This document shows positions 1-17,404 of a stretch of 17,502 bases of DNA, in pieces (positions within the stretch are counted from its first letter, which is position 1; each line of letters opens with the position of its first letter). Made by a program: the position numbers and the translations under genes. The notes under the pieces are model-generated. The model worked only from the letters and a program-made list of their open reading frames with translations, made no database searches and had not been told where the DNA came from. This DNA is from an uncultured Butyrivibrio sp. (lineage in GTDB: Bacteria; Bacillota; Clostridia; Lachnospirales; Lachnospiraceae), in NCBI GenBank assembly GCA_947169985.1, contig CAMVRW010000015.1:1-17502 (forward strand), written 5' to 3'.

Positions 1-26
1 TGGCTATAGCATGTCAACTACTTTTT

Positions 27-482: not shown

Positions 483-494
483 TAATTATTTCTC

Positions 495-1779: not shown

Positions 1780-1814
1780 AAGCTATCCTCCGGTAAAATG
1801 TCTTTTTATTATGA

Positions 1815-2858
1815 TCAGATAAACTGATATACAGTAACTGTGTCGTACTCTCTGTCTGGTCCAAATACGCAGTCAGGGAAACCTGCCTGGTTGATTGAAT
1901 TTGGATAGAACTGAGTCTCAAGACAGAAACCATCACGCTTGTTGTAAACAGCACCTTCCTTGCCGGGCTTGTTTGCAATGAAGTTTCCGGTGTAGAGCTG
2001 GAATCCCGGAAGTGTTGTTGAGCACTGCATAGCGATTCCTGTTGCAGGAGATGATACTGTACAGAAATTCCTTCTGGTTCCGTCAGCACCATCGATTACA
2101 TAGTTGTGGTCATAGCCTCCAACGAACTTAAGCTGCTCATTGTCTGCCTCAATATCTCTTCTAAGAGTCTTCTCCTGGCTAAAGTCAAATGGTGTGCCCT
2201 CAACGCTGGCAATCTCGCCGGTTGGAATAGCCTCAGAATTGATAACAGGTGTGTAATGTGATGCATTCATCTTCATAACATGATCAAGGCAGCTGCCTGA
2301 ATTGTGGCCGCTCAAATTGAAGTAAACATGGTTTGTCATGTTGATAAGAGTCTTAGCATCGCTTGTAGCATGATAATGAAGTGAAAGAGCCTTGTCATCA
2401 GTAAGAGTAAATGTAAGTTCAAATACTCTGTTTCCGGAAAAGCCCAGATCACCATCCTCAGCTTCTAATGTGAACTTAACGAAATTCTCTCCCTCTTCTG
2501 CGTCCCAGACACGCTTGTGGAAACCATTGTTCATGTCAGTATGCAGGTTGTTTGGACCATCGTTGATTGGAAGAATAAATTCTTTTCCATCTATAGAATA
2601 CTTCGCGCCGGCAATTCTATTAGCTGTCGGTCCAACTGTTGAGCCAAAGAAGCAGTCATTGTCAAAATACTGCTTGTAGTCGTCATATCCAAGGACAACG
2701 TCTACCTTATTACCATCCTTGTCCGGAACAAAAATGTTTCTGATGGTGCAGCCATAATTGAGCACAACCACTTCAACACCGGAATTGTTAGTCAGATGAT
2801 ACGCATAGATAGGTGCTCCGTTTGTAGCTTCTCCCCAAAATTCTCTCTTTACTGCCAT
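1815..2858 (-). CDS. galM: Aldose 1-epimerase (galactose mutarotase)
   Basis: A 347-residue protein, normal length for GalM, which interconverts alpha and beta anomers of aldoses such as galactose and glucose in the cytoplasm. Signature elements appear in family order: TANRIAG (79-84 region), NNLHTD with substrate His106, TNHVYFNLSGH with catalytic His177, GGYDHNY with Asp250, LPGFQLYTGNF (283-293), and FCLETQFYPNSIN with the catalytic base Glu314. The ATG is preceded by AAGGAGGT. It sits 37 bases after recR and 35 bases before the DUF5711-like gene, so it is probably part of a read-through transcript from dnaX-ybaB-recR. No other galactose (Leloir) gene is adjacent. Confidence in the function is high. 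Confidence 0.93.
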   Translation of the reverse strand: MAVKREFWGEATNGAPIYAYHLTNNSGVEVVVLNYGCTIRNIFVPDKDGNKVDVVLGYDDYKQYFDNDCFFGSTVGPTANRIAGAKYSIDGKEFILPINDGPNNLHTDMNNGFHKRVWDAEEGENFVKFTLEAEDGDLGFSGNRVFELTFTLTDDKALSLHYHATSDAKTLINMTNHVYFNLSGHNSGSCLDHVMKMNASHYTPVINSEAIPTGEIASVEGTPFDFSQEKTLRRDIEADNEQLKFVGGYDHNYVIDGADGTRRNFCTVSSPATGIAMQCSTTLPGFQLYTGNFIANKPGKEGAVYNKRDGFCLETQFYPNSINQAGFPDCVFGPDREYDTVTVYQFI

Positions 2859-2895
2859 ACCCGTTATACCTCCTTAGTCTTGTGAACGGTTTAAC

Positions 2896-3495
2896 TCAAA
2901 GCTCGGTTCTTCCCTCAAGGGCTCTGAGAAGTGTGACTTCATCAATGTACTCCAGGTCGCCGCCCACAGGAACGCCGCTGGCTATCCTGGTGACTTTTAT
3001 ACCTGTAGGTTTGACCAGTTTACTGATATACATGGCGGTAGTTTCACCTTCAAGGCTTGAGTTGGTCGCAATGATCACCTCGCTTATCTCCTCCGTCTGG
3101 AGTCTTTGCATAAGCTCAGTCAGCCTGATATCTGAAGGTCCGATTCCCAGCATAGGCGAAATGGCGCCATGTAAAACATGATATACCCCTTCGTATTTGC
3201 CGGTCTTCTCATATGCCGCTAAATCTCTCGCATTTTCCACAACCATTATGGTGTGATGATCCCTGTTTTCATTGCTGCAGATAGGACAGACATCGTCGTC
3301 CGTTAACGTGCAGCAAACCTTACAATAATGGACATTTTCCCTTGCGTCGGTTATGGAATCCGCCAGTTTCTTCACCCTGTCCTTGGGCAGGTTGATGATA
3401 TAAAAAGCCAGCCTTTGAGCCGACTTCCCACCAATTCCCGGAAGGGCAGCCAGTTCATCAATTAAACGGTTGATATGTCCGCTGTATAGATCCAT
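2896..3495 (-). CDS. recR: Recombination mediator protein RecR
   Basis: A 199-residue protein of typical RecR length. RecR acts with RecO/RecF to load RecA at single-strand gaps. Visible are the N-terminal helix-hairpin-helix (LPGIGGKSAQRLAFY, about 18-32), a four-cysteine zinc motif (C58, C61, C70, C73), and a Toprim domain beginning at VVENARDLAAYE (85-96) with YHVLHGAISPMLGIGP. Its ATG shares one base with the TAA stop of ybaB (TAATG), which implies translational coupling. The dnaX-ybaB-recR order is widely conserved in Firmicutes and supports all three calls. Confidence 0.97.
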   Translation of the reverse strand: MDLYSGHINRLIDELAALPGIGGKSAQRLAFYIINLPKDRVKKLADSITDARENVHYCKVCCTLTDDDVCPICSNENRDHHTIMVVENARDLAAYEKTGKYEGVYHVLHGAISPMLGIGPSDIRLTELMQRLQTEEISEVIIATNSSLEGETTAMYISKLVKPTGIKVTRIASGVPVGGDLEYIDEVTLLRALEGRTEL

Positions 3496-3842
3496 TAGAA
3501 AGGTAATCCTCCGCCAAGTCCACCTGTCATTTTGCTCATCATAGCTCCACTGGCCTCGTCAGCCTGCTTCATAGCCTCGTTGACAGCTGCTACGATCATG
3601 TCCTGAAGCATCTCAACATCATCAGGATCAACCGCGTCGGGAGAAATGGTAACACTCTTAAGTGTCTTGTTACCAAATACAGTAGCCTCTACAGCTCCGC
3701 CGCCGGCCTTGGCTGTAAACTCCTTAGCCTCCAGTTCCTTCTGGCTCTCCTCCATCTGTCTCTGCATTCTCTGAGCCTGCTTCATAAGATTGCTCATGTT
3801 TCCAGGCATTCCTCCGCCTGGGAATCCTCCACGTTTTGCCAT
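3495..3842 (-). CDS. YbaB/EbfC family nucleoid-associated protein
   Basis: A 115-residue protein. The family forms small dimeric DNA-binding proteins. Visible are a Gly/Met-rich N-terminus, an amphipathic helix MSNLMKQAQRMQRQMEESQ (about 15-33), the core GGGAVEATVFGNKTLKSVTI (68-87), and a Gly-rich C-terminal tail. Start and stop overlap dnaX and recR by one base each. The position between dnaX and recR is the classic location. The precise DNA target is unknown. Confidence 0.95.
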   Translation of the reverse strand: MAKRGGFPGGGMPGNMSNLMKQAQRMQRQMEESQKELEAKEFTAKAGGGAVEATVFGNKTLKSVTISPDAVDPDDVEMLQDMIVAAVNEAMKQADEASGAMMSKMTGGLGGGLPF

Positions 3843-5443
3843 TATTCATTCTCCTTATCTTCGTCCTCAGTCACTATTTCAAAGTTTATTGACTGAAGGT
3901 TAACATATGATTCTTCAAAGGTCTGGGTAGGTTCAAGACACCTGGTCTCATATTCCACGTGCTTTCCCATCATCTCATCAATGAAATTCTGGAATTCCTC
4001 CGCAGATTCTCCCTTTGAATATTTATCTGATAACTGCTTGTTGTCAAAGACTATCTGCAGCTTATCATCATTTCCAAGACTGAGCTTCGCCTTTTGCATG
4101 TAGGTCTTCATGGGGTTCCCCATGCGCAAAAGAGCTCTCGGCCATTCGCTCACAAGTTTTTTGATATCGTCAGGCACTGCCCTCTCAAGCACTTTCTTTT
4201 CCTTGGGCTGGATAGGCGCTCCTGTAACTCCCGGAGCTGCAGCAACTGCTATCTGTCCGCTCTGAAGCCCATCAAGGAGCTTAGAGTTCTTTTCATCGTG
4301 CTCTTCCAAAATCCTTAAGCGATCTTCAAAAGAATCCGCCTCGTCCTTGTCCATCTGAGGTTTGCAAAGTCTTATCAGGGTGATTTCTATCAGTATTCTC
4401 TTCTGGGTTGCATACCTTATGTTGGATGACAGCTCGGAAAAGATTCTTATGAACCTTAGTATGGTATCGGTGTCTGCCCCTTCTGCCTGCTCCTTCAAAG
4501 ATTTCAGGTTATCGGTGGAAATGTCAACCACATCCTCCATCTGGTCTGAAGCCTGTACAAGCATAAGATTTCGCAGATACCACACAAAGTCGTTAACAAA
4601 CTGGGTAAGCTCCCTGCCCTGGATGACTACATCTGACAGGATTGTCAGTGCCGAATTGGCATCCTGAGTATATAGGGCGGAAAAGAGCTTTTGGAAAACT
4701 TCCGTGTCTACGGCGCCAAGCACCCCAAGTACCTTATCGTAGGTCAGTTCCTCTCCATAGTTAAATGCTATGCACTGGTCAAGGAGACTCAAGGAATCTC
4801 TCATGGATCCGTCGGCTGTCTTAGCGATGTAGCGAAGAGCCCTCTCCTCAACCTGAATACCTTCCGCATCCACAACCTGTCTGAGGCGCCCTTCGATGGT
4901 ATCAATGGTTATCCTGTGGAAATCGTATCTCTGGCACCTTGATAGAATGGTAATAGGAATCTTGTGGACTTCCGTGGTAGCCAGGATAAACATGACATAG
5001 GAAGGTGGCTCCTCAAGGGTCTTAAGAAGCGCGTTAAAAGCACCGGCGGATAGCATGTGTACCTCGTCGATGATATAGACTTTTCTTTTTCCTTTGGTTG
5101 GGGAATAGGAAACCTCGTCGATGATCTCTCTGACATTGTCAACGCCGTTGTTGGATGCAGCATCGATCTCGATGACGTTCATGCTGTTGCCGGTGGCGAT
5201 CTCTTTACACATCTCGCACTGACCGCAGGGACTTCCGTCTATGGGATTCTCGCAGTTTACTGCCTTTGCCAAAATCTTTGCAACAGAAGTCTTACCTGTT
5301 CCACGAGTTCCGCAGAACAGGTAAGCATGTCCAACTCTATCTGATCGAATCTGATTCTTGAGCGTTGTGATTATATGATCCTGGCCTTTGACATCTTCAA
5401 AGACCGGGGGTCTGAATTTCCTGTATAGTGCTACATAACCCAT
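3842..5443 (-). CDS. dnaX: DNA polymerase III subunit gamma/tau
   Basis: A 533-residue clamp-loader ATPase of the replisome. Visible are Walker A GTRGTGKT (45-52), the zinc module with cysteines around 64, 73, 76 and 79, Walker B VYIIDEVHM (122-130), and the sensor/arginine-finger motif LSRCQRYDF (167-175). The gamma-homologous ATPase and collar fill the first 360 or so residues, followed by a short tau-like C-terminal domain. I did not see an obvious slippery A-run with a downstream hairpin of the E. coli type, so production of a shorter gamma form is not supported. The ATG at 5443 has only a weak, distant GGAG. The gene lies 47 bases after the phosphofructokinase gene with no terminator seen between them. 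Confidence 0.97.
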   Translation of the reverse strand: MGYVALYRKFRPPVFEDVKGQDHIITTLKNQIRSDRVGHAYLFCGTRGTGKTSVAKILAKAVNCENPIDGSPCGQCEMCKEIATGNSMNVIEIDAASNNGVDNVREIIDEVSYSPTKGKRKVYIIDEVHMLSAGAFNALLKTLEEPPSYVMFILATTEVHKIPITILSRCQRYDFHRITIDTIEGRLRQVVDAEGIQVEERALRYIAKTADGSMRDSLSLLDQCIAFNYGEELTYDKVLGVLGAVDTEVFQKLFSALYTQDANSALTILSDVVIQGRELTQFVNDFVWYLRNLMLVQASDQMEDVVDISTDNLKSLKEQAEGADTDTILRFIRIFSELSSNIRYATQKRILIEITLIRLCKPQMDKDEADSFEDRLRILEEHDEKNSKLLDGLQSGQIAVAAAPGVTGAPIQPKEKKVLERAVPDDIKKLVSEWPRALLRMGNPMKTYMQKAKLSLGNDDKLQIVFDNKQLSDKYSKGESAEEFQNFIDEMMGKHVEYETRCLEPTQTFEESYVNLQSINFEIVTEDEDKENE

Positions 5444-5490
5444 TTAAATAACTACTCCAACAAAACTTCTATGCTGATGCCAGGCTGCCT

Positions 5491-6564
5491 TTAATCCCCA
5501 AAGCATACTCCAAGCATCTTTGCTTCCTTGATAATGCTGGCATCAGGTGAAACGTATTTCAGCTTGCCTGCGATCTCGGAAAGAGGTACCTTAACAATCT
5601 CTCTGTTCTTGTAAGCTACCATATATCCATATTCTTTATTGATAACCAGCTGGCCGGCTTCTGCACCAAGTCTTGAAGCAAATACTCTGTCGTAAGGATC
5701 AGGCATTCCGCCTCTCTGCATGTGTCCGGGAACTGTAACCCTGACTTCATGTCCGGTCTTCTTCTGGATGGCTTCAGCTATCTCGTAGGATACTGACGGA
5801 TACTTGTAGTTAGCCATCTTCTCCTTAAACTCCTTCTTGGAGAGCTTTGCATCCTTCTTGGAGATCGCACCCTCAGCTACAGCAATGATGGTGAATCTGC
5901 TGCCTCTCTTGTCTCTGGCCTCAATAGCCTCACACACCTTACCGATATCATAAGGAATCTCAGGGATAAGGATTACGTCTGCACCGCCTGCAAGGCCGGC
6001 ATTCAGAGTAAGCCATCCAACCTTATGTCCCATAACCTCAATAATGAAAACACGGCCGTGGGAATCAGCTGTGGTATGGATATTATCTATAACATTGGTT
6101 GCAACATCTACGGCGCTCTGGAAACCAAAGGTCATATCTGTGCCCCAAAGGTCATTATCAATTGTCTTGGGAAGGGATACTACGTTGAGTCCCTCCTCAC
6201 TCAGCAGATTAGCGGTCTTCTGGGACCCGTTTCCGCCAAGAACTACAAGGCAGTCAAGCTGAAGCTTATAGTAATTCTGCTTCATTGCCTCAACCTTATC
6301 AAGTCCGTTCTCGTCAGGCTCTCTGATAGTCTTAAAGGGAGTTCTTGAACTTCCAAGAATTGTTCCGCCCTTTGTCAGGATACCTGAAAAGTCCTTCGAG
6401 GTCAGCATTCTGAAATCGCTGTAGATGAGTCCTCTGTATCCATTCTTGAATCCATAAAACTCAACTTCCTCTCCGCTGTGCGCAATACACTTAACAACGC
6501 CGCGCATTGCTGCATTCAAAGCCTGACAGTCACCACCACTAGTCAACATACCAATTCTCATCAT
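5491..6564 (-). CDS. 6-phosphofructokinase (PfkA superfamily; phosphoryl donor uncertain)
   Basis: A 357-residue cytoplasmic glycolytic enzyme that phosphorylates fructose 6-phosphate. The family core is clear: N-terminal GMLTSGGDCQALNAAMRG (5-22), GGNGS (110-114), PKTIDND (132-138) with catalytic Asp136, MGHKVGWLTL (178-187), EGA (231-233) and HMQRGGMPDPYDR (281-293). The donor-site signature is mixed. Gly113 matches ATP-dependent enzymes at the position of E. coli Gly104, whereas Lys133 matches the lysine typical of pyrophosphate-dependent and some 'long' ATP enzymes. Asn112 replaces the usual Asp of GGDGS. ATP or PPi use cannot be decided from sequence. The first of two ATGs has AAGGAGG 10 bases upstream and is preferred. 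A good promoter lies upstream. Confidence 0.92.
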   Translation of the reverse strand: MMRIGMLTSGGDCQALNAAMRGVVKCIAHSGEEVEFYGFKNGYRGLIYSDFRMLTSKDFSGILTKGGTILGSSRTPFKTIREPDENGLDKVEAMKQNYYKLQLDCLVVLGGNGSQKTANLLSEEGLNVVSLPKTIDNDLWGTDMTFGFQSAVDVATNVIDNIHTTADSHGRVFIIEVMGHKVGWLTLNAGLAGGADVILIPEIPYDIGKVCEAIEARDKRGSRFTIIAVAEGAISKKDAKLSKKEFKEKMANYKYPSVSYEIAEAIQKKTGHEVRVTVPGHMQRGGMPDPYDRVFASRLGAEAGQLVINKEYGYMVAYKNREIVKVPLSEIAGKLKYVSPDASIIKEAKMLGVCFGD

Positions 6565-6626
6565 GTGAAAAAGGCCTCCTTTGAATTAAAAGCTATAAGC
6601 TTATTTGTAAACGCACACTACTAGTA

Positions 6627-6656
6627 ATTATACATTAATTCTGCCCATACTGCCAA
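6627..6656 (-). promoter_or_regulatory. Sigma-70-type promoter for the phosphofructokinase gene
   Basis: On the minus strand, TTGGCA (6651-6656) and TATAAT (6627-6632) are separated by 18 bases. The predicted start is near 6620, giving a leader of about 55 bases that contains a strong AAGGAGG. This may also drive dnaX and the downstream genes. Confidence 0.75.
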
Positions 6657-6665
6657 CTAATCCGG

Positions 6666-6694
6666 TTGACTATGAATCATTAAAAAAGTATAAT
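6666..6694 (+). promoter_or_regulatory. Promoter for tRNA-Ser
   Basis: On the plus strand, TTGACT (6666-6671) and TATAAT (6689-6694) are separated by exactly 17 bases, close to consensus and suited to a stable-RNA gene. Transcription would begin near 6701, at the base of a perfect hairpin that precedes the tRNA. Confidence 0.85.
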
Positions 6695-6724
6695 AAAAAA
6701 CGCTTCGGTGCTATTCCCGAAGCG
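6695..6724 (-). terminator. Rho-independent terminator of the HD-GYP transcript
   Basis: A perfect 8-bp stem (CGCTTCGG / CCGAAGCG, 6701-6708 and 6717-6724) with an 8-base loop is followed on the minus strand by six T residues (6695-6700) and further AT-rich sequence. It faces the HD-GYP gene, which ends at 6816. On the plus strand the same hairpin forms the 5' end of the pre-tRNA and lacks a T tract. Confidence 0.85.
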
Positions 6725-6728
6725 CTTT

Positions 6729-6814
6729 GGAGACGTATCAAAGTGGTCGTAATGAGGCGCACTCGAAATGCGTTTGTCCGTAAGGGCACGCGGGTTCGAA
6801 TCCCGCCGTCTCCG
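6729..6814 (+). tRNA. tRNA-Ser (anticodon CGA)
   Basis: Eighty-six bases fold as a class II tRNA. The acceptor stem is GGAGACG / CGTCTCC with discriminator G6814. There is a short D stem TCA/TGA and an anticodon stem GCGCA/TGCGT with loop CTCGAAA, anticodon CGA at 6764-6766. The long variable arm is TGTCC-GTAA-GGGCA, and the T arm is GCGGG-TTCGAAT-CCCGC. The CCA end is not encoded. The long variable arm and CGA anticodon identify a serine tRNA reading UCG. It ends two bases before the stop codon of the convergent HD-GYP gene. Confidence 0.96.
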
Positions 6815-6815
6815 T

Positions 6816-7832
6816 TTAATCTAGGATCCTGATTACTGTAACATCCAGTTTTTTCATCATATCTATTACAGCTCCGTTCTGGAGTTTAACCTTAGGCCTT
6901 GAAAGGTTCTTTTCATCATTCTCCATTACTATACCCTGCAGTCCATTAGACATAAGAACTTTACAGCCCAGTGGGTAAGGAGCAACATACTTAAGGAACG
7001 TGTTGATAATGTCAATATCAAACATGGTTCCGCTGTTGGCCATGATGTATTCAATGGCATCTGCCGGATTCATGGCATCCTTGTAGGCGCGCTTAGCAGT
7101 AAGTGCGTCGTACACATCTGCCACGTGTATGATCCTGGCGAACTTATGGATACCTTCTCCCTGGAGTCCTCTGGGATAGCCGGATCCATCCCAGTTCTCA
7201 TGATGGGAGTAGACGGCATTCTTAACAACAGCTGCCACGTCCTCAGCTCCCGTATCAACTCTGTCACGGAGCCTTTTAAGGCCATACAGAGGGTGGTTCT
7301 TCATCTCCTCGTACTCTTCCTTGGTAAGCTTTGCAGGCTTATTAAGTATTTCCACAGGAACATCGCATTTTCCAATATCGTGCATGAGCGCACCCTGGGA
7401 AAGCAGCTCAAGCTCACTGTTCTTAAGCCCCATTCCAATACCAATGATAACGGAAAGCACATCCACGTTTACGCTGTGGACATAGGTGTAGCTGTCGTAG
7501 GAACTTAAGGAAACCTGCTCCACAATAAGCGAATCAGAACTCTGGATCTCATTTACGATGCTGTTGGCAAGGAACATACAGGCGTCGATATCAAGCTTTC
7601 TGAGCTTGTTGATGGCCTTCATCCTGGTTTCATCTGAAACGATGCTCTTGGCGTTTTCCACGTCTCCGTTTTCGTAGACATAGACACCGTCAAACTGAAG
7701 CTTTTGTATCCTGGCAATAAACGAATCGGAAAGCTGGGTGTTTGCCCTTAAAAGCACCTGTTCATTATCGTCGTATAGGTTGCTGGACAGAATCATTCCA
7801 GCCTTAAGGTCTTTTGCGCCGACGTACCTCAT
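6816..7832 (-). CDS. HD-GYP domain cyclic-di-GMP phosphodiesterase
   Basis: A 338-residue predicted cytoplasmic signalling enzyme that hydrolyses cyclic di-GMP. The N-terminal region (about 1-75) resembles the small domain that often precedes HD-GYP (VGAKDLKAGMILSSNLYDD). The catalytic domain carries H119, the HD pair at 151-152 (MHDIGK), H180, HHE (210-212), the defining DGSGYP (215-220) and ARIIHVADVYDALTA (232-246). All expected metal ligands appear present. The C-terminal 60 residues form a small beta-rich tail (LGCKVLMSNGLQG...). No receiver or transmembrane segment is seen. It is translated from a strong AAGGAGGTG that lies inside the end of the upstream intein gene, with a 3-base intergenic gap, so expression is probably coupled to it. 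Confidence 0.92.
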   Translation of the reverse strand: MRYVGAKDLKAGMILSSNLYDDNEQVLLRANTQLSDSFIARIQKLQFDGVYVYENGDVENAKSIVSDETRMKAINKLRKLDIDACMFLANSIVNEIQSSDSLIVEQVSLSSYDSYTYVHSVNVDVLSVIIGIGMGLKNSELELLSQGALMHDIGKCDVPVEILNKPAKLTKEEYEEMKNHPLYGLKRLRDRVDTGAEDVAAVVKNAVYSHHENWDGSGYPRGLQGEGIHKFARIIHVADVYDALTAKRAYKDAMNPADAIEYIMANSGTMFDIDIINTFLKYVAPYPLGCKVLMSNGLQGIVMENDEKNLSRPKVKLQNGAVIDMMKKLDVTVIRILD

Positions 7833-7835
7833 ACC

Positions 7836-8879
7836 TCACACCTCCTTGACATGTCCTGTAGTACAGTTGTGTGAGATAATTCCATTTGCGATGAAGTTTC
7901 TGCCGGTAGTCATTATCTCCACCATATCTTCGCAGTCAACTTCCTCAATGGATACTATCCTGACTTTATCGTGGTGCTTATCCTGAATATCTACATTCTC
8001 GAGCTTACAGGTAGTCACAGGATTATAAATATTGTAAAAGCGCAGCAGTTCTGAAGGTCCGCCCAGGAGCATAGCCTTCCTGTCTTTACTGCTGTATTCA
8101 TATTCGAAGCCATACATATCAAGGCCGTATTTAACTATGTCAAGGAACTGCCTCTTTGAACTGGTGACATTCTTCACGAAGGGATTTCCCGATCCGTTTG
8201 AGTCATAGACTCCAGCCACAAAACCTCTGATGAAATCCTCCTTGTCCTTATTCTTAGAGAACTTATTGGACAGGTTTATCATCTCGGTATAGGGAAGGTT
8301 GAGCTTCTTGGTTATATAGTATTCGTTAGTATCATTATCCCTGGCAAAGCAGTCTTCTATAGTCGCATCAGCGCCAAAATACAAAAGATAATTGTACATG
8401 CGCTTCGTTACTGCTGCCTCCTGAAGCACAAATTCAGCTATATCACCGCCTTTAAAAGAGATCAGATTCTTGCCATAGATCTCCGCGCTCACAAAGTACC
8501 CCTGCATATAGAGCTTGGTCTCCTCGTGGGCTTTCTTAAGACTCCCTGTAAGACCGCACATTTTGATGTCTTCTTTCAGGTAAACCTTTCCTGCAGGAAG
8601 GGTGTCATCATCATAGGTAAAGAGCCATCCCTGCTTGGTCAGCCACTGGTGGTTAGCGCTACTTATTAAAACTCTGCCATCATTTAAGGTTATCCTGAAA
8701 GCCTTGCCTTTGCGCTTGTTTACGCTGATAACCTCACTCTTCACGTATTGATAGGAATCTCCGTTGTACTGAACAGCATAAACAGCATCGCCTTTTTTCA
8801 GCTCTTTGACCTTTCTCATTGTATTGTTGTACATCAGAACAGTCATATTACCGTCAACACAATCAAAGTTTCTTTTCAT
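7836..8879 (-). CDS. Free-standing LAGLIDADG intein (Hint domain) with minimal exteins
   Basis: A 347-residue protein that is almost entirely an intein. I choose the ATG at 8879 because GGAGAGG lies 6 bases upstream; an ATG at 8894 would add five residues. After MKRNFD comes Cys7, the presumed first intein residue (CVDGNMTVLM). Block B-like GRVLISSANHQW has His77. Two LAGLIDADG-like helices follow: YMQGYFVSAEIYG (about 124-136) and FIRGFVAGVYDSNGSG (216-231), each with an acidic residue near its end. The C-terminus has DMVEIMTTG with Asp318, FIANGIISHN and then Cys339 (penultimate His337, terminal Asn338, nucleophilic +1 Cys). All residues needed for splicing appear intact. The C-extein is only CTTGHVKEV. 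Splicing would leave a 15-residue peptide. No host domain is visible, so its role is unknown. Self-splicing, processing or endonuclease activity are inferences from the family. Confidence 0.82.
   Translation of the reverse strand: MKRNFDCVDGNMTVLMYNNTMRKVKELKKGDAVYAVQYNGDSYQYVKSEVISVNKRKGKAFRITLNDGRVLISSANHQWLTKQGWLFTYDDDTLPAGKVYLKEDIKMCGLTGSLKKAHEETKLYMQGYFVSAEIYGKNLISFKGGDIAEFVLQEAAVTKRMYNYLLYFGADATIEDCFARDNDTNEYYITKKLNLPYTEMINLSNKFSKNKDKEDFIRGFVAGVYDSNGSGNPFVKNVTSSKRQFLDIVKYGLDMYGFEYEYSSKDRKAMLLGGPSELLRFYNIYNPVTTCKLENVDIQDKHHDKVRIVSIEEVDCEDMVEIMTTGRNFIANGIISHNCTTGHVKEV
7839..7847 (-). promoter_or_regulatory. Shine-Dalgarno of the HD-GYP gene inside the intein gene
   Basis: AAGGAGGTG on the minus strand forms exactly the last three sense codons (Lys-Glu-Val) of the intein gene. 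The intein stop TGA follows directly, and the HD-GYP ATG begins 6 bases after the site. This arrangement predicts translational coupling. Confidence 0.85.
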
Positions 8880-8885
8880 AGTCAG

Positions 8886-8892
8886 CCTCTCC
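8886..8892 (-). promoter_or_regulatory. Ribosome site that decides the intein gene start
   Basis: GGAGAGG on the minus strand, 6 bases before the ATG at 8879. The upstream in-frame ATG at 8894 has no comparable site and itself runs into this motif. Confidence 0.7.
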
Positions 8893-8915
8893 ATAGAAAT
8901 GTCCAGGTTACCATT

Positions 8916-8953
8916 AAAAAATCCCAGCAGGTTAATTTAACACTGCTGAGATT
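8916..8953 (-). terminator. Rho-independent terminator of the double-glycine peptide gene
   Basis: An 11-bp stem (8920-8930 with 8943-8953, one G-U pair on the minus strand) and a 12-base AT-rich loop that is itself partly palindromic are followed by six T residues on the minus strand. It lies 31 bases after the peptide stop and only about 20-35 bases before the intein gene, so transcription of the intein gene would need read-through or a promoter overlapping the hairpin. Confidence 0.8.
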
Positions 8954-8984
8954 AATTTTACACTATCTTTCGATTGCTATCCAC

Positions 8985-9206
8985 TTATAATGTTGGCTGT
9001 GTTCCACAGTACTGACAAACCATTCGAGTACCGGAATATACGATATGAGGAGTATCCTTCTGACACTTAATACAGTAATGGGTGGTCTTTCCAGCCCCCT
9101 CTTTTATTTCTGCCACCTCAGCTCCACTGGAGGCTTTGGCAGTCCTTCCACCGGCAACATTTATAAGTTCACTCTCTTCAAGTTTTTTCTTCATTTCATC
9201 AGACAT
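8985..9206 (-). CDS. Double-glycine leader peptide with zinc-ribbon-like core
   Basis: A 73-residue protein. The first 20 residues look like a leader of the bacteriocin/RiPP double-glycine type: charged MSDEMKKKLEESEL, then INVAGG. Cleavage after GG would be expected from a C39-peptidase ABC transporter, none of which is in the window. The core of 53 residues has a linker rich in Ala, Gly and Glu and two CxxC pairs (CIKC at 45-48, CQYC at 64-67) spaced like a small zinc ribbon, ending GTQPTL. AAGGAG lies 7 bases before the ATG. It has a dedicated promoter and terminator and therefore behaves as a single-gene unit. It could be a secreted peptide, a RiPP precursor modified at cysteines, or a zinc-ribbon protein with a chance GG. 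No modification enzyme is adjacent. Confidence 0.65.
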   Translation of the reverse strand: MSDEMKKKLEESELINVAGGRTAKASSGAEVAEIKEGAGKTTHYCIKCQKDTPHIVYSGTRMVCQYCGTQPTL

Positions 9207-9233
9207 AAGGCAATCTCCTTTCCCCGTTTCTTA

Positions 9234-9262
9234 TTTATACGAACAAAAAAAATCATTGGCAA
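9234..9262 (-). promoter_or_regulatory. Promoter of the double-glycine peptide gene
   Basis: On the minus strand, TTGCCA (9257-9262) and TATAAA (9234-9239) are separated by 17 bases, with a T-rich spacer. The start would be near 9227, about 20 bases before the ATG, leaving room for a short leader with AAGGAG. Confidence 0.7.
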
Positions 9263-9278
9263 ATTTCTTTTTTCAAAT

Positions 9279-9980
9279 TCAGAATGTATACTTCAAAACC
9301 AATTCGCTAAGGGCTCTGTAGGTTCCTCTTGGCACAGAGAATTCCTTTCCATCTTCCATCACCACGTAGTCCTTAGTTATCTTTAAAACTCTTTTCAGAT
9401 TTATTATGCTCTTGGCCCCTAGGACATAAAAATAGGGTCTGTCCAGTTCATCGATCAGGGGCTGAAGAGTGCTCCTTATCAAAAAGCTGTCCTCGCCAAG
9501 CACAATCCTCTTGTAGTGGTCCTGAGACTCAATGTAGATAATGTCGTCAAGCTCTACTCTGTGGACCTCTCCGCTATCCCTGAAGGTCAGAAACCTCGCC
9601 TCTTCCTCCTGCTTGCAGACACGGTCCATGGCATCAAAAAACTCCTCCTCGAGGATGGGCTTTTCAAGATAATGGACCGCATGGATCCTGAAGGCCTCCT
9701 TGTAAAAGGCATTTGAGGAGGTCATGAAGATGATCTGAGCATCTTCATTCTTATTCCGGATGGCCTGGGCCAGCTCGATTCCGTTTATCTTGTCGATATA
9801 GATGTCCAGCAGATAGATGTCGTAGATCTGCTTTTCCATGGCACCCAAAAGATCCAGGGAGCTGTAAAAGACATCTGCCCTGATCTCCAAGCCTTCATGT
9901 GCCTTCCTGTATTTCTCCAAAAGCTCTGCCGCCTGAGCAGCAGAGCTTTTTTCATCATCACATATTGCTAAAGAATACAT
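9279..9980 (-). CDS. LytTR-family response regulator (AgrA/ComE-like)
   Basis: A 233-residue two-domain transcription regulator. The receiver domain (about 1-122) has the acidic pair Asp8-Asp9, phosphoacceptor Asp59 (YLLDIYI), Thr87 (MTSS) and Lys107 (LEKP). The C-terminal LytTR DNA-binding domain spans about 128-233 (ELDDIIYIES...YFYVLGAKSIINLKRV...VPRGTYRAL). Such regulators usually work with a membrane histidine kinase sensing peptides, but no kinase is adjacent. Its ATG follows a GGGGGA motif and is 20 bases from the DUF6033-like gene, so they are probably co-transcribed. The peptide gene starts 72 bases downstream from its own promoter and is a plausible target, though I see no clear direct repeat to prove it. 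Confidence 0.93.
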   Translation of the reverse strand: MYSLAICDDEKSSAAQAAELLEKYRKAHEGLEIRADVFYSSLDLLGAMEKQIYDIYLLDIYIDKINGIELAQAIRNKNEDAQIIFMTSSNAFYKEAFRIHAVHYLEKPILEEEFFDAMDRVCKQEEEARFLTFRDSGEVHRVELDDIIYIESQDHYKRIVLGEDSFLIRSTLQPLIDELDRPYFYVLGAKSIINLKRVLKITKDYVVMEDGKEFSVPRGTYRALSELVLKYTF

Positions 9981-10000
9981 TGTTCCCCCAACGCCCTTCT

Positions 10001-10747
10001 TTATCCCTTAAAATCTATACTCTGACCAATACTCTTCTCATATGGTGTCATCACCGAATCCGCCCGAAGCGAGAAGTTATAGTCTTCAATCTTTCTAAGG
10101 AGATCCTCCACAGAATCTGCCTGGAGGATAACGTAATCCTCCTCATCATCCTCTACTTCAGTTCCGTCCTTGTTCCGGAGCTTTTCAAGCTGGGCTTTTT
10201 CTGCTTCCTTCTTTTCTGCAGCCTTCTCAGCTTTCTTTTTCTCTGCTCTCTTTTCCTGGAGCTTGTCCATCATATCTTTGTTGGACTTACTCATAACAGC
10301 GAAGAAAGATGCTGTTCCGTTGTCGTTGACCTGCATTCCAATGGTCTTGACTCCGGACTGGTTTTGCATAATGGACTTGAGCTCCGGCATCTTAGCCTGA
10401 GCCTGGGCTATAAGCCCCTCATACTTTGCCCTGTACTCCTCATCAGTGGCCATTCTCTCAATCTTTTCTTCATCGATGAGAACTACCATCCTGTTGGCAT
10501 TACCAAAGGAGCTGGCGTTTGCCTTGGCATAGTCCTTCATGTCCTTACTTACAAGGACAAAGTCCATATTGGAGTATTTCTTTTTCAGTTCCTCGTAGTA
10601 CTTGGCACCCTCTTCACTGAGCTGTACCTTTCCCAAAGTCTTGCCATAATTACCGGTAGTTTTGCTGCTTTCCTTTGTTTCGGAATTCCTGGCTGCCTCA
10701 TAGACAGCGGGATTTGTGCCGGCAGCGATCTCAGAAATGTTGCTCAT
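10001..10747 (-). CDS. DUF6033-like charged protein
   Basis: A 248-residue soluble protein without signal peptide or membrane segment. The middle (about 50-160) contains YYEELKKKYSNMDFVLVSKD and a conserved-looking ASSFGNANRMVVLIDEEKIE, which I recognise as the style of DUF6033 proteins common in Lachnospiraceae. Residues about 158-197 are very rich in Lys, Glu and Ala and should form a coiled coil. An acidic patch DDEEDY follows. Function is unknown. The ATG has AAGGAGGGAAC directly upstream. It lies between the lipoprotein gene (65-base gap) and the response regulator gene (20-base gap). The family label is from memory and should be treated as likely rather than certain. Confidence 0.65.
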   Translation of the reverse strand: MSNISEIAAGTNPAVYEAARNSETKESSKTTGNYGKTLGKVQLSEEGAKYYEELKKKYSNMDFVLVSKDMKDYAKANASSFGNANRMVVLIDEEKIERMATDEEYRAKYEGLIAQAQAKMPELKSIMQNQSGVKTIGMQVNDNGTASFFAVMSKSNKDMMDKLQEKRAEKKKAEKAAEKKEAEKAQLEKLRNKDGTEVEDDEEDYVILQADSVEDLLRKIEDYNFSLRADSVMTPYEKSIGQSIDFKG

Positions 10748-10812
10748 GGTTCCCTCCTTGTCTCGAGAATAATCCCGTCAGCCTCCGTGCTGATGTGAAC
10801 ATTTACAGTTTC

Positions 10813-11733
10813 TTACTCTACCTTATCTCCTGTCTTGGCATCATATACAGATGACTCCAGCACTTCACCTGTTTCATACAATACCTTGGAGAATATTATC
10901 TGTTTCTTTTTCTGGTCATACTCTGTCTTATATATATATCGGACATTATCATCAAGAACTTCACGGTCTCCGATCCAATTTGGGCAGAAAAATTCAAATC
11001 CGTCTCCTGATTGAACCTCCAGCATCTTGTTGGACACGTCTACAGATACTCCCTCATCAGTCAGGATCTTGTAGTCAAAGTCAGCATAATCGCCAATCTC
11101 AGCATCTTCCCTGCCTATTGAGCTAAGGTATTCCTCTGCATAGGATCTCTCCTGCTTCTCAAGCTCATTCATGTCGTCAGGATCTATGGTGATGCACCTG
11201 CTCCAAAGAGCTTCAGGGAAATTCTTTTTGATGGAATCAACAAAGTTGCTTCCGTCCTCAGCCTCCACCATGGAAATGAATTCAAAGCTTCCATCATCAT
11301 GGGACTGAACAGTTACTACTGCCGGAATAGCTCCGGTTCCAGCACACTTTACAAAATTTCCGTTCTGGAACTCGTATGCGCCAAACATCTCCAGGATATA
11401 GCACTTCTGGTTACCGTCAGCATCAGGCTCATCCTTGTCCATAAGGATATGCCCCTCGCCCTGGGTCTCTCCTGCCTTAAACAGATTATTATTGCACAGG
11501 ATGATTCCTGCTCCGATGGCTTCATCCAAAGACGCAGTGATCTCGGGAACACTTTCCATCACAGCTTCCTGTGTTGATGCTTCAGCAGGTGCCTCAGGTG
11601 CAACCTCTTCTACTGAACTCTCCTCTGCAGCAGCCGGCGGTGCTTCTTCCGGCGCATTACTCTTGCCACAGCCCGCTATAACGGTAGAAGTTAAAAGAGC
11701 TACTGTTAATAGTGCAATTACTCGATTCTTCAT
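10813..11733 (-). CDS. Predicted lipoprotein of unknown function
   Basis: A 306-residue exported lipoprotein. The signal peptide MKNRVIALLTVALLTSTVIAGC gives a good lipobox with Cys22. A low-complexity Glu/Ala/Pro linker (about 26-60) follows, then a globular part. Segments such as GAYEFQNGNFVKCAGTGAIP, DGSFEFISMVEAEDGSNFV and SIKKNFPEALW resemble a domain I recall from the C-terminus of some BlaR1-type M56 sensor proteins of Clostridia; this is weak. The gene begins 17 bases after the TIR-propeller gene, with GAGGAGG as ribosome site, so both are in one transcript. Since the propeller of that neighbour is predicted to be outside the membrane, the lipoprotein could be its partner. Confidence 0.8.
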   Translation of the reverse strand: MKNRVIALLTVALLTSTVIAGCGKSNAPEEAPPAAAEESSVEEVAPEAPAEASTQEAVMESVPEITASLDEAIGAGIILCNNNLFKAGETQGEGHILMDKDEPDADGNQKCYILEMFGAYEFQNGNFVKCAGTGAIPAVVTVQSHDDGSFEFISMVEAEDGSNFVDSIKKNFPEALWSRCITIDPDDMNELEKQERSYAEEYLSSIGREDAEIGDYADFDYKILTDEGVSVDVSNKMLEVQSGDGFEFFCPNWIGDREVLDDNVRYIYKTEYDQKKKQIIFSKVLYETGEVLESSVYDAKTGDKVE

Positions 11734-11750
11734 AAAGCCTCCTCATCTGA

Positions 11751-14700
11751 TCAGTTGAGCTGGTACTTCCTCCTCTGATCCTCAGTCAAACTGGCGTCTC
11801 CGAATTGCTTTTGAACTTCACCCATAAGATCTTCAAGACTCTTGACCTTGAATTTATATGTTTCTTTTCCGTTAATACTTATTATACTATTTTGTTTCTT
11901 TAAATAGAACACTCCCTTATAAGCCTTTCCTGTAAATGTAAAGCTGCCTGTGTCCATAAAGTACAGATTGACTGAAGTCCTGAACGCAATAGTATGTCTT
12001 TCCACATCCTCCATAACGTTGTGGATGTCCTCGATAACGTCGTCGGATTCATACACAAATTTCTTCTCGTTAAGGTCATAGATCCTGAGATAAAGATCTG
12101 ACCCCTGAAGATAAAGCTTCGAACCATCCTCAGACATATATACGAAACCGCTGCCCAGAGTGGCATAGTACTTTACTTCATCCAGAACATCCAGGCTTTG
12201 GGCGTCAACAACACGAAGTACGCCATCCACGCAGGAAATAAGGAGTTTGCTGCCATCCTCTGTCATCCTAAGGCCTATAGCCCTGTAGTCAGTAAGTATC
12301 GGCTCCACATCATCCACCGACATGTCAGCCTTAAACAGTTCCCCATCATAGTTGATGTAATAGAATATATCGCCGGTATCCGGAAGGACAGCCTCGTTTA
12401 TGATCTTGCTGTGGTCATATTCCTGCAACAGAGTTCCGGCCTGAAGCTCTTTTTTCTCCACAACATCCACCAGCTTGTAGTCAAGGGACATCCAGAACAA
12501 AGCTCTTTTGCCCCCTACAGAAATCACATCTTTTGTAAGGGAGTATTTGCTTTCAAAAGAGGCTTCCTCTCCCTTGTCAGCTGCAATGTCGTAGTAGTAA
12601 AACTTCTCGTAATTAACCGGGAAGACTACGGTTTTGTTGTCCAGGAAGAACATATCTGAATATGATGCCCCCTCCAGTACAAGCTCCTTCTTAAGTTCAC
12701 CGGTGGTTGTGTCATAAATGTAATAAGTGGTCTTACCATACTCAGGACAAGACATTCTGGAGATGACCATATAGTTCTCACCAGGACTCTTTAGCTGATA
12801 GTCCTTTGGAGTTGGCATGGTAGCCAGATTCTCAATGGTGTCATCCTCCAAAGCTTTCATCAAAGTAATATCAGATGACCTGTACCCCGAGGAAATAAGC
12901 CTATTGGCGCCAATTGCGAAATGAATGAGGCTGTCAGCAACTTCAATGGTGTTATCAGTGTAGACAGTGCCTGTAGTGGCGTTGACAACATAAACCTTTC
13001 CGCTTATGGTACCCACGTAAGCATAGTTATTGTCACTGATCAGACGGAACGCCTCAATATCATTATCCGGGTAACATGTTGCTAAGACTTCTCCGGTATT
13101 AAGGTCAAGGGTATAGAGGCAGCTGCACAAGGATACCACCAGCTCATCATGCTTTATACCATTACCATCCTCGTAGCTTCTGGTCCTGACTCTGGTATAG
13201 CTGTTGTCAAAGTTGGAAGGAGTATGAGCACACTCAGTGGCAAACAAAAGCTCCCCGCTGGTCAGGTCGAATTTTTGAATATATGCAGACCTTGTCTCAG
13301 TAGCCATCAGATCCTCGAAGGTCATTGAGGCCACTGCAAGATAGCCATCCACGGTAAAGTGGAAATCCAGCTGAGAGTCTCCAAAGGTATTGGCACATAC
13401 TGCATTTCCCGTCCTGGTGTCTATTATGCGAATGCCTAAAGGCTCATCCGCAGCAGCATCCGACATATCAACAGCCACATAAGTTCCCTCCTCGTTCATC
13501 CTGATCTTGGATGAAAAGTCAGTCCCTTCTTCCTCATTAGTGTAGCTGAATACCACTTCACCTGTGACGCAGTCTCTCACCTCCACCAGGTCAGAATAAC
13601 TCAAAGCCACTTTTTTACTTTTGTTATCAAACCAGGCTCCCAGGCACTCATCCGGCAGATACACACTGTAGACCTCTGTGCCGTCCTCTTCAAAGCACCT
13701 TAGCTTAAATCCGGTCACCACCACAGGTTTTCTGTCAACAACAGATAACTCCGTTACAGCATCCAGCTCGCCACCAAGATACTCAGCATATTTCTCAAAC
13801 AAAAGCTCACCTTTATCAGTATCCCAGTAATAGAGCCCGCTCTGGCTATCATAGGAAAAGACTCTTTCCCCATCTGAACTGCAGGAGAAATCCCTTACAG
13901 CCATATTGTGACGAAGCTTTAGATCATTCTTAAGTTCTGAGCCCAGTTCATATGTACCAAGAGCCTGTGAAAGGGCATAGATATCGTCCTGGACCAAAGG
14001 CCTGTCATCCCCGGACTTTGGAAGCCCCTCAAGGGCTATGAGCGCAGCAGTCTTCCTGTCACCCTCTTCCAGAACGCGAAGAGATGTGGCAGCTATTACC
14101 TTTGACTCGTTTATAAGCTTTTGCTGATAGTTTTCATTGATTCTTGCCAGATTGTAGGCATTGTAGACGCCAAAAGCCACTCCCAGGATCGCTACTCCGG
14201 TGGCTATGGTCATATTTCTTCTGACACGGCGCTCTCTGTGGCGCTGTCTAAGATCATCATAATCGCAGTGAAGGATCGAAGCTGCAAGCCTCATGGTCTC
14301 CACCTTGATCTTCTTGTTGATCTCCCTTTTTGTCTCGCCCCTTACATCTGCCGCCAGAGGCTCTACAGGATTCCCGTTCTCATCAGATAAGAGCTGAGGA
14401 GGAAAAGAGTCTTCAGGCTCTCCCTCAACTAACACTGCAAGAACGTTTTCCCTTCCATGAAGGGATATAAAAGTATCTATTTCCTTCATAACCCAGTATG
14501 ACTCCTGGGTCTGTGGTGAACAGATAACAACAAGCATCTCTGACTCTGTCAGAGCGTATTCTATATTGTTTCCAAGATCACTTCCGATAGGGAGTTCTTC
14601 CTGATCCCTGAACACCCTCTGGATCCTTTTCTTTCCTGTCTCCTTCTGAATCTTCCTGGGGATCTTAGTGGTCTCCAGTGCCTTGTGAACCTTCTTTGCT

Positions 14701-14753
14701 ACATACATGTCCTTCTCAAGATGTCTGTAGCTGATAAATGCATCGTACTTCAT
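11751..14753 (-). CDS. TIR domain - transmembrane - beta-propeller protein
   Basis: About 1000 residues. I choose the ATG at 14753 (MKYDAFISYRH); a TTG seven codons upstream lacks a ribosome site. Residues 1 to about 120 are a TIR domain: YDAFISYRH (3-11), FRDQEELPIGSDL (48-60), and SYWVMKE with Glu91 at the position of the catalytic glutamate of NAD-cleaving TIRs. Basic residues RHRERRVRRN (171-180) precede one membrane helix (about 181-203), placing TIR inside and the remainder outside. A helical stretch (about 205-275, KVIAATSLRVLEEGDRKTAAL) is followed by WD40-like/propeller repeats to the C-terminus (for example FSCSSDGERVFSYDSQSG, MTEDGSKLLISCVDG). It follows the Nudix gene by 30 bases and precedes the lipoprotein gene by 17. 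A role in sensing, signalling or defence is inferred, not shown. Confidence 0.88.
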   Translation of the reverse strand: MKYDAFISYRHLEKDMYVAKKVHKALETTKIPRKIQKETGKKRIQRVFRDQEELPIGSDLGNNIEYALTESEMLVVICSPQTQESYWVMKEIDTFISLHGRENVLAVLVEGEPEDSFPPQLLSDENGNPVEPLAADVRGETKREINKKIKVETMRLAASILHCDYDDLRQRHRERRVRRNMTIATGVAILGVAFGVYNAYNLARINENYQQKLINESKVIAATSLRVLEEGDRKTAALIALEGLPKSGDDRPLVQDDIYALSQALGTYELGSELKNDLKLRHNMAVRDFSCSSDGERVFSYDSQSGLYYWDTDKGELLFEKYAEYLGGELDAVTELSVVDRKPVVVTGFKLRCFEEDGTEVYSVYLPDECLGAWFDNKSKKVALSYSDLVEVRDCVTGEVVFSYTNEEEGTDFSSKIRMNEEGTYVAVDMSDAAADEPLGIRIIDTRTGNAVCANTFGDSQLDFHFTVDGYLAVASMTFEDLMATETRSAYIQKFDLTSGELLFATECAHTPSNFDNSYTRVRTRSYEDGNGIKHDELVVSLCSCLYTLDLNTGEVLATCYPDNDIEAFRLISDNNYAYVGTISGKVYVVNATTGTVYTDNTIEVADSLIHFAIGANRLISSGYRSSDITLMKALEDDTIENLATMPTPKDYQLKSPGENYMVISRMSCPEYGKTTYYIYDTTTGELKKELVLEGASYSDMFFLDNKTVVFPVNYEKFYYYDIAADKGEEASFESKYSLTKDVISVGGKRALFWMSLDYKLVDVVEKKELQAGTLLQEYDHSKIINEAVLPDTGDIFYYINYDGELFKADMSVDDVEPILTDYRAIGLRMTEDGSKLLISCVDGVLRVVDAQSLDVLDEVKYYATLGSGFVYMSEDGSKLYLQGSDLYLRIYDLNEKKFVYESDDVIEDIHNVMEDVERHTIAFRTSVNLYFMDTGSFTFTGKAYKGVFYLKKQNSIISINGKETYKFKVKSLEDLMGEVQKQFGDASLTEDQRRKYQLN

Positions 14754-14783
14754 TACCCAAAAAACTCTTTCCAATTAAAATAT

Positions 14784-15443
14784 TTATTTCCACATGTCAC
14801 TTACAAAATACATAAGTGCCGCCCAGGTGTAGATAGAATAAAATGTCCCCTTGCCATCAACACCGTTTTTAAGCAGCTCTTTTGCCTGATCCTTAGTGAC
14901 AAGTTCAAAGCCGTCAAAGCACTCCTGACCCTCTGCCCCAGCCTGAGTAAGCTCATCAAGGCTCTGAAGATGGAGCTTAACGCAAACAAGGGCGTTGCTC
15001 TCATCCGTCATCCCGGGAGTACTGAAAAGAAATGGATTGATAACGAAAAGCTCATCCCTTTCATCATCCACCACAATTCCCGTCTCCTCATGGATCTCCC
15101 TCCTGGCAGTCTCTAAAAGAGGCTCGTCCTTCTCGGAATCCTCAGGATCCACAAGACCTGCAGGAACCCCTAAAAGAAATCTTCCTGTGGGATATCTGAA
15201 TTCATAGGAGAAAAGAAGCTGTGGCTCTTTTCCCGGAAGTTCTATGATAACCACGCAGCTGACAGCGTCAGGCAAAGCCTTCTTTAGCTCCTCTGGGCTC
15301 ATGGTAGCCACTATTTTTTCAAGAGGCCTTCTTGTGGCATTCAGATAGTGTTTCCCTTCCGCATACTGAAGATCAAAAACTTTGATAAATTTCTTGTCGA
15401 GGACTGTCTCGACGCATTCCTTACTGATAACCGGTTTTTTCAT
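14784..15443 (-). CDS. Nudix hydrolase, ADP-ribose pyrophosphatase-like
   Basis: A 219-residue soluble enzyme expected to cleave a nucleoside diphosphate linked to another moiety. The Nudix box is PAGLVDPED (94-102), an extra acidic insertion, then ETARREIHEETGI (111-123), with Glu116, Glu119 and Glu120 as metal ligands. The loop between the initial Gly and the REIHEE core is about five residues longer than the textbook box. The overall arrangement (upstream beta strands with FSYEFRYPTGRFLLGVPAG) resembles ADP-ribose pyrophosphatases of the NudF type; substrate is inferred. AAAGGAGAGCT precedes its ATG, and it starts 9 bases after the DUF6472-like gene. It is directly upstream of a TIR gene whose product, if active, would release ADP-ribose or a cyclic form, a natural substrate for such a hydrolase. 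Confidence 0.88.
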   Translation of the reverse strand: MKKPVISKECVETVLDKKFIKVFDLQYAEGKHYLNATRRPLEKIVATMSPEELKKALPDAVSCVVIIELPGKEPQLLFSYEFRYPTGRFLLGVPAGLVDPEDSEKDEPLLETARREIHEETGIVVDDERDELFVINPFLFSTPGMTDESNALVCVKLHLQSLDELTQAGAEGQECFDGFELVTKDQAKELLKNGVDGKGTFYSIYTWAALMYFVSDMWK

Positions 15444-15452
15444 AGCTCTCCT

Positions 15453-15623
15453 TTATATCTGATGTCTTACAACTTTGTACTCATCATTATCCTGATAGTA
15501 GGGGCATTCCTTGGCATTTCCGGACATGAGTCTGTAGTAATCGTCCTCGTCCATGTTCACCATGCAGGTGTAGCACTCCCAATCCTCATCATAGACATAG
15601 TTTGCGCAGGTATCGCAGATCAT
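15453..15623 (-). CDS. Small cysteine-rich DUF6472-like protein
   Basis: A 56-residue protein. It begins MICDTCANYVYDEDWECYTC and has five cysteines (C3, C6, C17, C20 and C40, the last in ECPYY) and an acidic centre MDEDDYYRLMSG, ending EYKVVRHQI. Two CxxC pairs eleven residues apart suggest metal binding. The pattern matches what I recall of the DUF6472 family of Lachnospiraceae; function unknown. Its ATG overlaps the TGA stop of the RACo-like gene (ATGA), implying translational coupling, and the Nudix gene begins 9 bases later. Codons and position support a real gene despite its size. Confidence 0.85.
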   Translation of the reverse strand: MICDTCANYVYDEDWECYTCMVNMDEDDYYRLMSGNAKECPYYQDNDEYKVVRHQI

Positions 15624-17290: not shown

Positions 17291-17303
17291 ACATCAATAG
17301 TTT

Positions 17304-17333
17304 AGCATAAAAGTAGTTGCATTATTGTGGCAT
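17304..17333 (-). promoter_or_regulatory. Possible promoter of the RACo-like gene
   Basis: On the minus strand, ATGCCA (17328-17333) and TATGCT (17304-17309) are separated by 18 bases, each four of six to consensus. Transcription near 17297 would leave almost no leader before the ATG at 17290, which favours the internal GTG start. Confidence 0.35.
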
Positions 17334-17361
17334 TTTGGAGTTAAATGTGAGAAAATATAAG
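17333..17361 (+). promoter_or_regulatory. Possible promoter of the SPFH gene
   Basis: On the plus strand, TTTTGG (17333-17338) and TATAAG (17356-17361) are separated by 17 bases. The -35 is poor; the -10 is fair. It is the best placed candidate in the divergent 114-base gap. Confidence 0.3.
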
Positions 17362-17404
17362 TTACGAAATAATTGTAGCTTTTAAAGTATGAAAGGAGAT
17401 AGTT

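Follow-up and report, generated by a model that had tools for sequence, protein, structure and literature searches.

Free-standing intein genes next to an HD-GYP gene in Butyrivibrio

The DNA analysed here, referred to as the window, is a stretch of 17,502 nucleotides from an uncultured Butyrivibrio sp. (assembly GCA_947169985.1, contig CAMVRW010000015.1, positions 1 to 17,502 of the forward strand). It contains a 347 amino acid open reading frame (ORF) that is almost entirely an intein. Inteins are normally found within a host protein, yet this intein and its homologues in eight other genomes have no host, and each is followed by a gene for an HD-GYP phosphodiesterase. The reading that we prefer, with a probability of about 0.45, is that of a host-less, self-processing intein that would be a non-cutting, DNA-binding partner of the HD-GYP protein, encoded in a horizontally transferred operon. 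The sequences themselves show the architecture of the gene, its exclusive pairing with HD-GYP, gene ends that are tightly spaced or overlap, invariant residues at the C-terminal splice junction, the loss of the catalytic acid of the first LAGLIDADG motif, and discordant trees.

A gene made up of an intein

The ORF is on the reverse strand at 7836–8879, with its ATG at 8879 and its stop codon at 7836–7838; the intein that it encodes is complete and includes a LAGLIDADG domain. An alternative in-frame ATG is located five codons upstream at 8894; the start at 8879 is favoured because of the aligned starts of the homologues and a GGAG shortly before it. The protein is matched by TIGR01445 at 25.2 bits (cut-off 24.5), by TIGR01443 at 19.2 bits (cut-off 15.6), and by Pfam Intein_splicing (PF14890) at E 3e-8 and 34.0 bits, slightly below the cut-off of 35.8. 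Among curated models the strongest match is to the intein section of NF038136, the Rv2578c-type radical SAM intein, at 104 bits along residues 7–340.

The intein itself is residues 7–338. The N-terminal half of its Hint (splicing) domain, identified with TIGR01445, spans residues 7–90 (8610–8861) and includes Cys7, Ser74 and His77. A LAGLIDADG domain follows at residues 118–298 (7986–8528), placed by fold match and alignment, and the C-terminal half of the Hint domain, placed with TIGR01443 and the alignment, occupies residues 299–338 (7866–7985) with Glu321, Arg327, His337 and Asn338. The exteins are MKRNFD (6 residues, 8862–8879) and CTTGHVKEV (9 residues, 7839–7865). All of these are on the reverse strand. 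The junction set of an intein (Cys or Ser at the first position, block-B His, penultimate His, terminal Asn and a +1 Cys, Ser or Thr) is complete in this protein. An initial annotation made from the sequence had described the gene as an intein with tiny flanks and had named Cys7, His77, the terminal His-Asn and Cys339, all of which are present; the architecture recurs in eight further genomes, and the tiny exteins are therefore not a sequencing error. Its choice of Asp318 as the block-F acid does not hold, since the alignment places the invariant Glu321 as the acid of block F, and position 318 is Glu or Asn in two of the nine homologues.

A profile built from the nine sequences identifies nine carriers, including the window's own genome, among 79 genomes of the genus, which was taken as Butyrivibrio from its named members. 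The window protein as a single query gives nine matches among 145 relatives. Seven carriers are named Butyrivibrio: Butyrivibrio sp. FCS014 (G062), WCD3002 (G026), Su6 (G052), SIG347 (G021), SIG344 (G006), RGIG2449 (G071) and an uncultured Butyrivibrio (G028). The homologues are 46–61% identical to the window protein, and the embedding in a host protein that is a hallmark of inteins fails in all nine, which are free-standing with N-exteins of 6 residues and C-exteins of 4–11 residues. TIGR01445 (E ≤ 0.01) and NF038136 each match all nine. A second, broken copy of the intein at a contig end in FCS014, probably an assembly artefact, was excluded from the counts. Beyond the genus, a sample of 397 genomes of the family gives a match to the intein profile in the window's own genome only, and a sample of 398 genomes of the phylum adds to it a single weak match over part of the protein (G609, residues 163–276, E 4e-5).

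Distant matches are found in 10 phage and 3 plasmid records. The best of these are at most 32% identical, and none was accepted as a close relative embedded in a host. A viral origin was likewise rejected, there being no confirmed relative in viral_contigs, as was membership of a defence system: the intein has no PADLOC match and the HD-GYP protein has just weak matches to Cas3/Cas10-HD. The situation that the initial annotation held to be fatal to its view, the same intein within a full-length host, was not encountered, with no close host-embedded relative in the genomes searched.

Conservation at the splice junctions, counted in the window's numbering on the alignment of the nine homologues, is uneven. 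Ser74, His77, Glu321, Arg327, His337 and Cys339 are invariant, as are Met1 and the −1 residue Asp6. Residue 7 is Cys in seven, Ser in one and Tyr in one (G026), and residue 338 is Asn in three. Past Cys339, the sole invariant residue of the C-extein, none of eight positions is invariant and the mean identity is 26%. The persistence of the +1 Cys and the penultimate His while the surrounding residues drift suggests that the chemistry of the C-terminal junction is under selection. Part of the C-extein is explained by the needs of the DNA rather than the peptide, because a GGAG fitting as the ribosome-binding site of the HD-GYP gene sits within its codons in seven of the nine. In the window this is AAGGAGGTG (7839–7847, reverse strand), which provides both the K-E-V codons and the predicted Shine-Dalgarno sequence. 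In G071 and G060, any ribosome-binding site for HD-GYP falls after the intein stop codon.

The LAGLIDADG domain has the two-motif fold, with a fold match to WhiA, and to this extent the two LAGLIDADG helices of the initial annotation stand; the first, however, is without its catalytic acid. The acid of motif 1 (position 136, or 137 by an alternative alignment; Gly136 in the window protein) is kept in none of the nine, and it is retained in the three host-embedded inteins that were compared, none of them Rv2578c. The motif-2 position is Asp or Glu in seven, Asn228 in the window protein and Ala in G060. A catalytic acid in each motif is thus not found in any homologue. The loss from motif 1 is evidence against classical homing, and nicking would be possible given the motif-2 acid kept in seven of nine.

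The HD-GYP gene and the movement of the pair

The next gene after the intein ORF is HD-GYP in nine of nine carriers, 70–76% identical to that of the window in the other eight, and of the 79 genomes these nine are also the only ones in which this HD-GYP is found at E ≤ 1e-60. This exclusive pairing is evidence for a functional couple. The initial annotation had wondered whether homologues would share the tiny exteins and the HD-GYP neighbour, which all nine carriers do, and its proposal that the intein matters to the adjacent gene draws what support it has from the pairing (same nine genomes, always adjacent). In the window the HD-GYP gene (338 amino acids, 6816–7832, reverse strand) begins 3 nucleotides past the intein stop codon; across the nine the spacing is +3, +3, 0, −4 (four genomes), +16 and +43 nucleotides. 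A fusion by stop codon read-through was considered and rejected, the two frames being in register after a single stop in three carriers (the window, G062 and G026) and not in the other six.

The window's HD-GYP protein matches PF13487 at 108 bits (cut-off 27.2), and the HD, GK, H, HHE, G.GYP and D catalytic residues are invariant in all nine. Its solved relatives (5z7c, 4mcw and 4r8z) include phosphodiesterases of c-di-GMP and 3'3'-cGAMP, and a cyclic-dinucleotide phosphodiesterase is predicted. In the family sample, 28 other genomes match HD-GYP at E ≤ 1e-75. All 29 HD-GYP loci of other genera that were read (35–45% identical) align from the first residue, so this gene is neither truncated nor a part of a split host.

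The intein and HD-GYP unit is present in seven different neighbourhoods. Among ORFs of at least 90 amino acids there is no orthologous flanking gene in common except within the trio G021, G006 and G028, and a few paralogue matches at 23–55% were seen. In a tree of dnaX (61 of the 79 genomes; a match was found in 73, of which 12 were left out), the carriers are scattered among non-carriers, with G049, G050, G027 and G038 as near sisters without the unit. In approximately unbiased (AU) tests on the nine carriers, the dnaX topology is rejected by the intein (p 8e-13) and by HD-GYP (p 0.002); the HD-GYP data are compatible with the intein topology (p 0.056). It is likely from these patterns that the pair has moved horizontally between species.

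The site occupied in the window was compared in 19 relatives. In ten, the two flanks lie near each other on the stretch retrieved, without the unit between them in any. Four (G072, G021, G028 and G006) have tRNA-Ser, a small ORF and a LytTR gene, and are missing the segment that lies between tRNA-Ser and the small ORF at 6819–8984 in the window. Four others (G056, G031, G004 and G066) are missing the small ORF as well, and G067 and G060 have a different tRNA-like sequence. At the Su6 site, a sister clade has retained pieces of the 3' end of HD-GYP, in G012 (~90 nucleotides) and in G049 (~14 nucleotides), and G040 has none. The left break points of the two remnants differ, and the unit has therefore probably been lost twice at this site. 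At the FCS014 site, where the unit comes after tRNA-Glu, G050 has in its place a 563-residue transporter-like open frame (L122 2829–4517) that we take to be DctA-like. Transposon-like ends were sought and rejected: in seven of the nine carriers, no direct or inverted repeat of at least 9 bases links the 145 bases preceding the unit with the 160 bases that follow it. The window has one A/T-rich direct match. In G062 there are a direct match, likewise A/T-rich, and an inverted 9-mer, as well as a terminator-like direct repeat of 13 bases when a wider stretch is considered.

When G021 is compared with the other two of the trio, the intein ORF differs from its surroundings. Between G021 and G006 it is the lowest-divergence 1-kb segment of 266 at the locus (1.2%), compared with minima of 4.5% in 223 segments off the ORF and 3.5% in 122 segments of the dnaX locus. 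Between G021 and G028 it is at 1.0% the lowest of 105, with a minimum of 3.6% in 62 segments off the ORF. In the numbering of the G021–G006 comparison, the tract has its start somewhere in 9982–10004 (ATG at 10001) and its end somewhere in 10922–11058 (stop codon at 11050), with 11 mismatches in the 66 positions just before it and 10 in the 70 just after it, these stretches having been picked post hoc. A further low patch with one mismatch lies inside HD-GYP at 11128–11300. The claim of low divergence is based on these frame-free segments and not on synonymous divergence (dS), which between G021 and G006 is 0.02 for the intein, 0.71 for HD-GYP and 0.49 for dnaX. One 157-residue ORF pair between these genomes has a dS of 0.031, which counts against the uniqueness of the low intein value; we presume it to be an antisense frame. 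In the trio, the GC content of third codon positions (GC3) is 42 for the intein and 51–53 for HD-GYP, and the non-synonymous divergence (dN) of the intein is below its dS. G006 and G028 are alike over most of the neighbourhood, with an intein dS of 0.032 and values of 0.025–0.067 for neighbours other than HD-GYP.

Because divergence is low from about the ATG to the stop codon relative to the surroundings, a recent transfer or conversion of the intein ORF, leaving out most of HD-GYP, is probable between the G021 lineage on one side and G006 and G028 on the other. Conversion limited to the ORF is evidence for an element of its own. The suggestion in the initial annotation of an element that spreads without a host is thus favoured by the patchy distribution, the seven neighbourhoods and the discordant trees, and also by this recent movement in one species group. 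As separate observations in the trio, the 657-residue gene beside the unit, presumably a fructose-1,6-bisphosphatase, has in G021 the opposite orientation to that in G006 and G028 (L016 7829–9802 against L017 7883–9856), and G028 has a repeat-like gacacggggacggttctgttgtctccttttgg and its complement directly after HD-GYP (L020 12060–12290) that is not seen in G021 or G006.

Possible roles of the pair

In the preferred reading the intein protein would process its own ends, through Cys or Ser at residue 7 (eight of nine), attack by the +1 Cys, and then cyclisation of Asn or Asp. Its catalytically reduced LAGLIDADG core would bind DNA without cutting, by analogy with WhiA, and together with the HD-GYP protein it would have a joint regulatory role.

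Several results weigh against this. TIGR01443 matches just three of the nine homologues, residue 338 is Asp in six, and residue 7 is the Tyr noted above in one genome. Endings in Asp and Gln are known and can cyclise, according to PMC4031507; the same paper indicates that Tyr at the first position bars the start of class 1 splicing, with direct attack by the +1 Cys (class 2) or C-terminal cleavage by itself still possible. Glu133, three residues ahead of the motif-1 position, is kept in eight of nine and could in principle substitute for the lost acid. The structure model is weak in the Hint part, with a mean predicted local distance difference test (pLDDT) score of 53 overall. The intein data reject the HD-GYP topology (AU test, p 0.010), and movement of the intein ORF without most of HD-GYP is not predicted for a strictly co-adapted pair. 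That carriers can do without the pair is clear from its deletion remnants in G012 and G049. Incomplete genomes are also numerous among the 79, that of the window (66.85%) included.

The main rival, which we consider somewhat unlikely, is that the gene corresponds in bacteria to the WHO elements of yeast, as a stand-alone homing gene of intein origin beside its constant HD-GYP target that spreads by nicking or cutting and gene conversion. HO and WHO are stand-alone relatives of inteins that lack both exteins and motif G, and FBA1 is the gene beside which WHO homes, as described in PMC7282813 and PMC7282806. The tract of lowest divergence over the intein ORF, its low dS and distinct GC3 relative to HD-GYP, and a possible nickase with the motif-2 acid would all fit, and low divergence confined to the ORF, seen in a single species group, would be no more than a hint of homing. 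Yet the motif-1 acid is lost in all nine, and a homing parasite needs empty targets, whereas none of the 79 genomes has such an HD-GYP allele without the element. Beyond a short leader, no upstream flank aligns between G021 and G006, and plain recombination between units would therefore stop near the ATG as well. The second low patch inside HD-GYP fits mosaic recombination, the G006–G028 comparison has no contrast between the intein and neighbouring genes, and neither a zinc finger nor HD-GYP fragments are seen beside the ORF.

Less probable again is a dispensable two-gene mobile cassette in which the intein is a decaying passenger and the splice residues are inherited without present use. The presence in nine of 79 genomes is patchy, the deletions left different HD-GYP remnants, Tyr7 and Asp338 depart from the standard junction, and FCS014 has its broken second copy. 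Against decay there are nine full-length open frames at 46–61% identity to the window, with His77, His337 and Cys339 invariant beside unconserved residues; dN is below dS in the trio, a weak point as the changes are few, and the broken copy is at a contig end where an assembly artefact is the probable cause.

A device releasing a short ligated peptide of 10–17 residues as a signal, one of the options in the initial annotation, is very improbable: the splice residues are retained and signal peptides can differ between strains, but the C-extein of 4–11 residues is unconserved past the +1 Cys and holds the HD-GYP ribosome-binding GGAG in seven of nine, residue 7 of G026 is unable to start class 1 splicing, and no flanking gene of at least 90 amino acids apart from HD-GYP is common to the seven neighbourhoods. 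Another of its options, an intein that outlived its eroding host gene (or else a truncation of the sequence), is just as poorly placed: the NF038136 match makes an ancestral host conceivable, but all nine copies share the same tiny exteins, no close relative in the genomes searched is host-embedded, the flanking genes are unrelated, and HD-GYP, aligning from its first residue at the 29 loci of other genera, is not a split host.

Other features of the window and relation to known systems

The 3' end of a tRNA-Ser(CGA) (6728–6815, forward strand) abuts the HD-GYP stop codon, and this tRNA is the sole RNA element at the gathering threshold in 6500–9300. On the other side of the unit, a 73-residue ORF (8985–9206, reverse strand) has a GG-leader-like start (ESELINVAGG), a C-terminal CxxC..CxxC pattern and a weak PADLOC match to PDC-M14A; homologues at 35–45% identity are found at the same tRNA-Ser/LytTR site in G072, G021, G028 and G006. 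A 1007-residue protein (11751–14774, reverse strand) has an N-terminal TIR domain, also matched as ThsB_TIR, with weak beta-propeller matches in the remainder.

Among known systems, the yeast WHO and HO genes, relatives of the VMA1 intein, are comparable in being stand-alone, independently expressed LAGLIDADG genes derived from inteins, and WHO in having one constant neighbour gene, as HD-GYP adjoins the intein in all nine carriers. They differ in lacking exteins and motif G and in having a zinc finger (PMC7282813). Here, the window ORF ends 9 residues past an intact motif G and the +1 Cys is retained. A zinc finger and the motif-1 acid are both missing, and the gene belongs to bacteria and has HD-GYP as its neighbour. 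WhiA (DUF199) shares the LAGLIDADG fold and a Gram-positive setting, and its loss of cleavage is reported in PMC7282813. In WhiA a helix-turn-helix is linked to the LAGLIDADG domain; no helix-turn-helix was matched here, and for the Hint domain no counterpart is named in WhiA. The Rv2578c-type (NF038136) and other LAGLIDADG inteins have the same Hint blocks A, B, F and G with a nested LAGLIDADG domain, but sit inside large host proteins. Bacterial intein-like (BIL) domains are also autoprocessing domains of the Hint type in bacteria; according to PMC4031507, they are without the +1 nucleophile that is Cys339 in nine of nine here.

In searches of openly available papers, judged by titles and the openings of abstracts, no description of a host-less intein family in bacteria turned up. 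HO and WHO are the stand-alone intein relatives that were found described, and have lost motif G, whereas the bacterial family keeps the residues of the C-terminal junction. That these genes form a family of bacterial host-less inteins, with splicing chemistry kept for their own maturation, no nuclease activity, an HD-GYP signalling partner and mobility between Butyrivibrio species, is a tentative proposal with the odds somewhat against it. An intein-only bacterial family allows the retention of inteins for their own processing chemistry to be tested directly, and the exclusive pairing with HD-GYP provides a concrete pathway to examine. If the proposal is correct, these bacterial genes would mirror yeast HO, in which the nuclease survived and splicing was lost.
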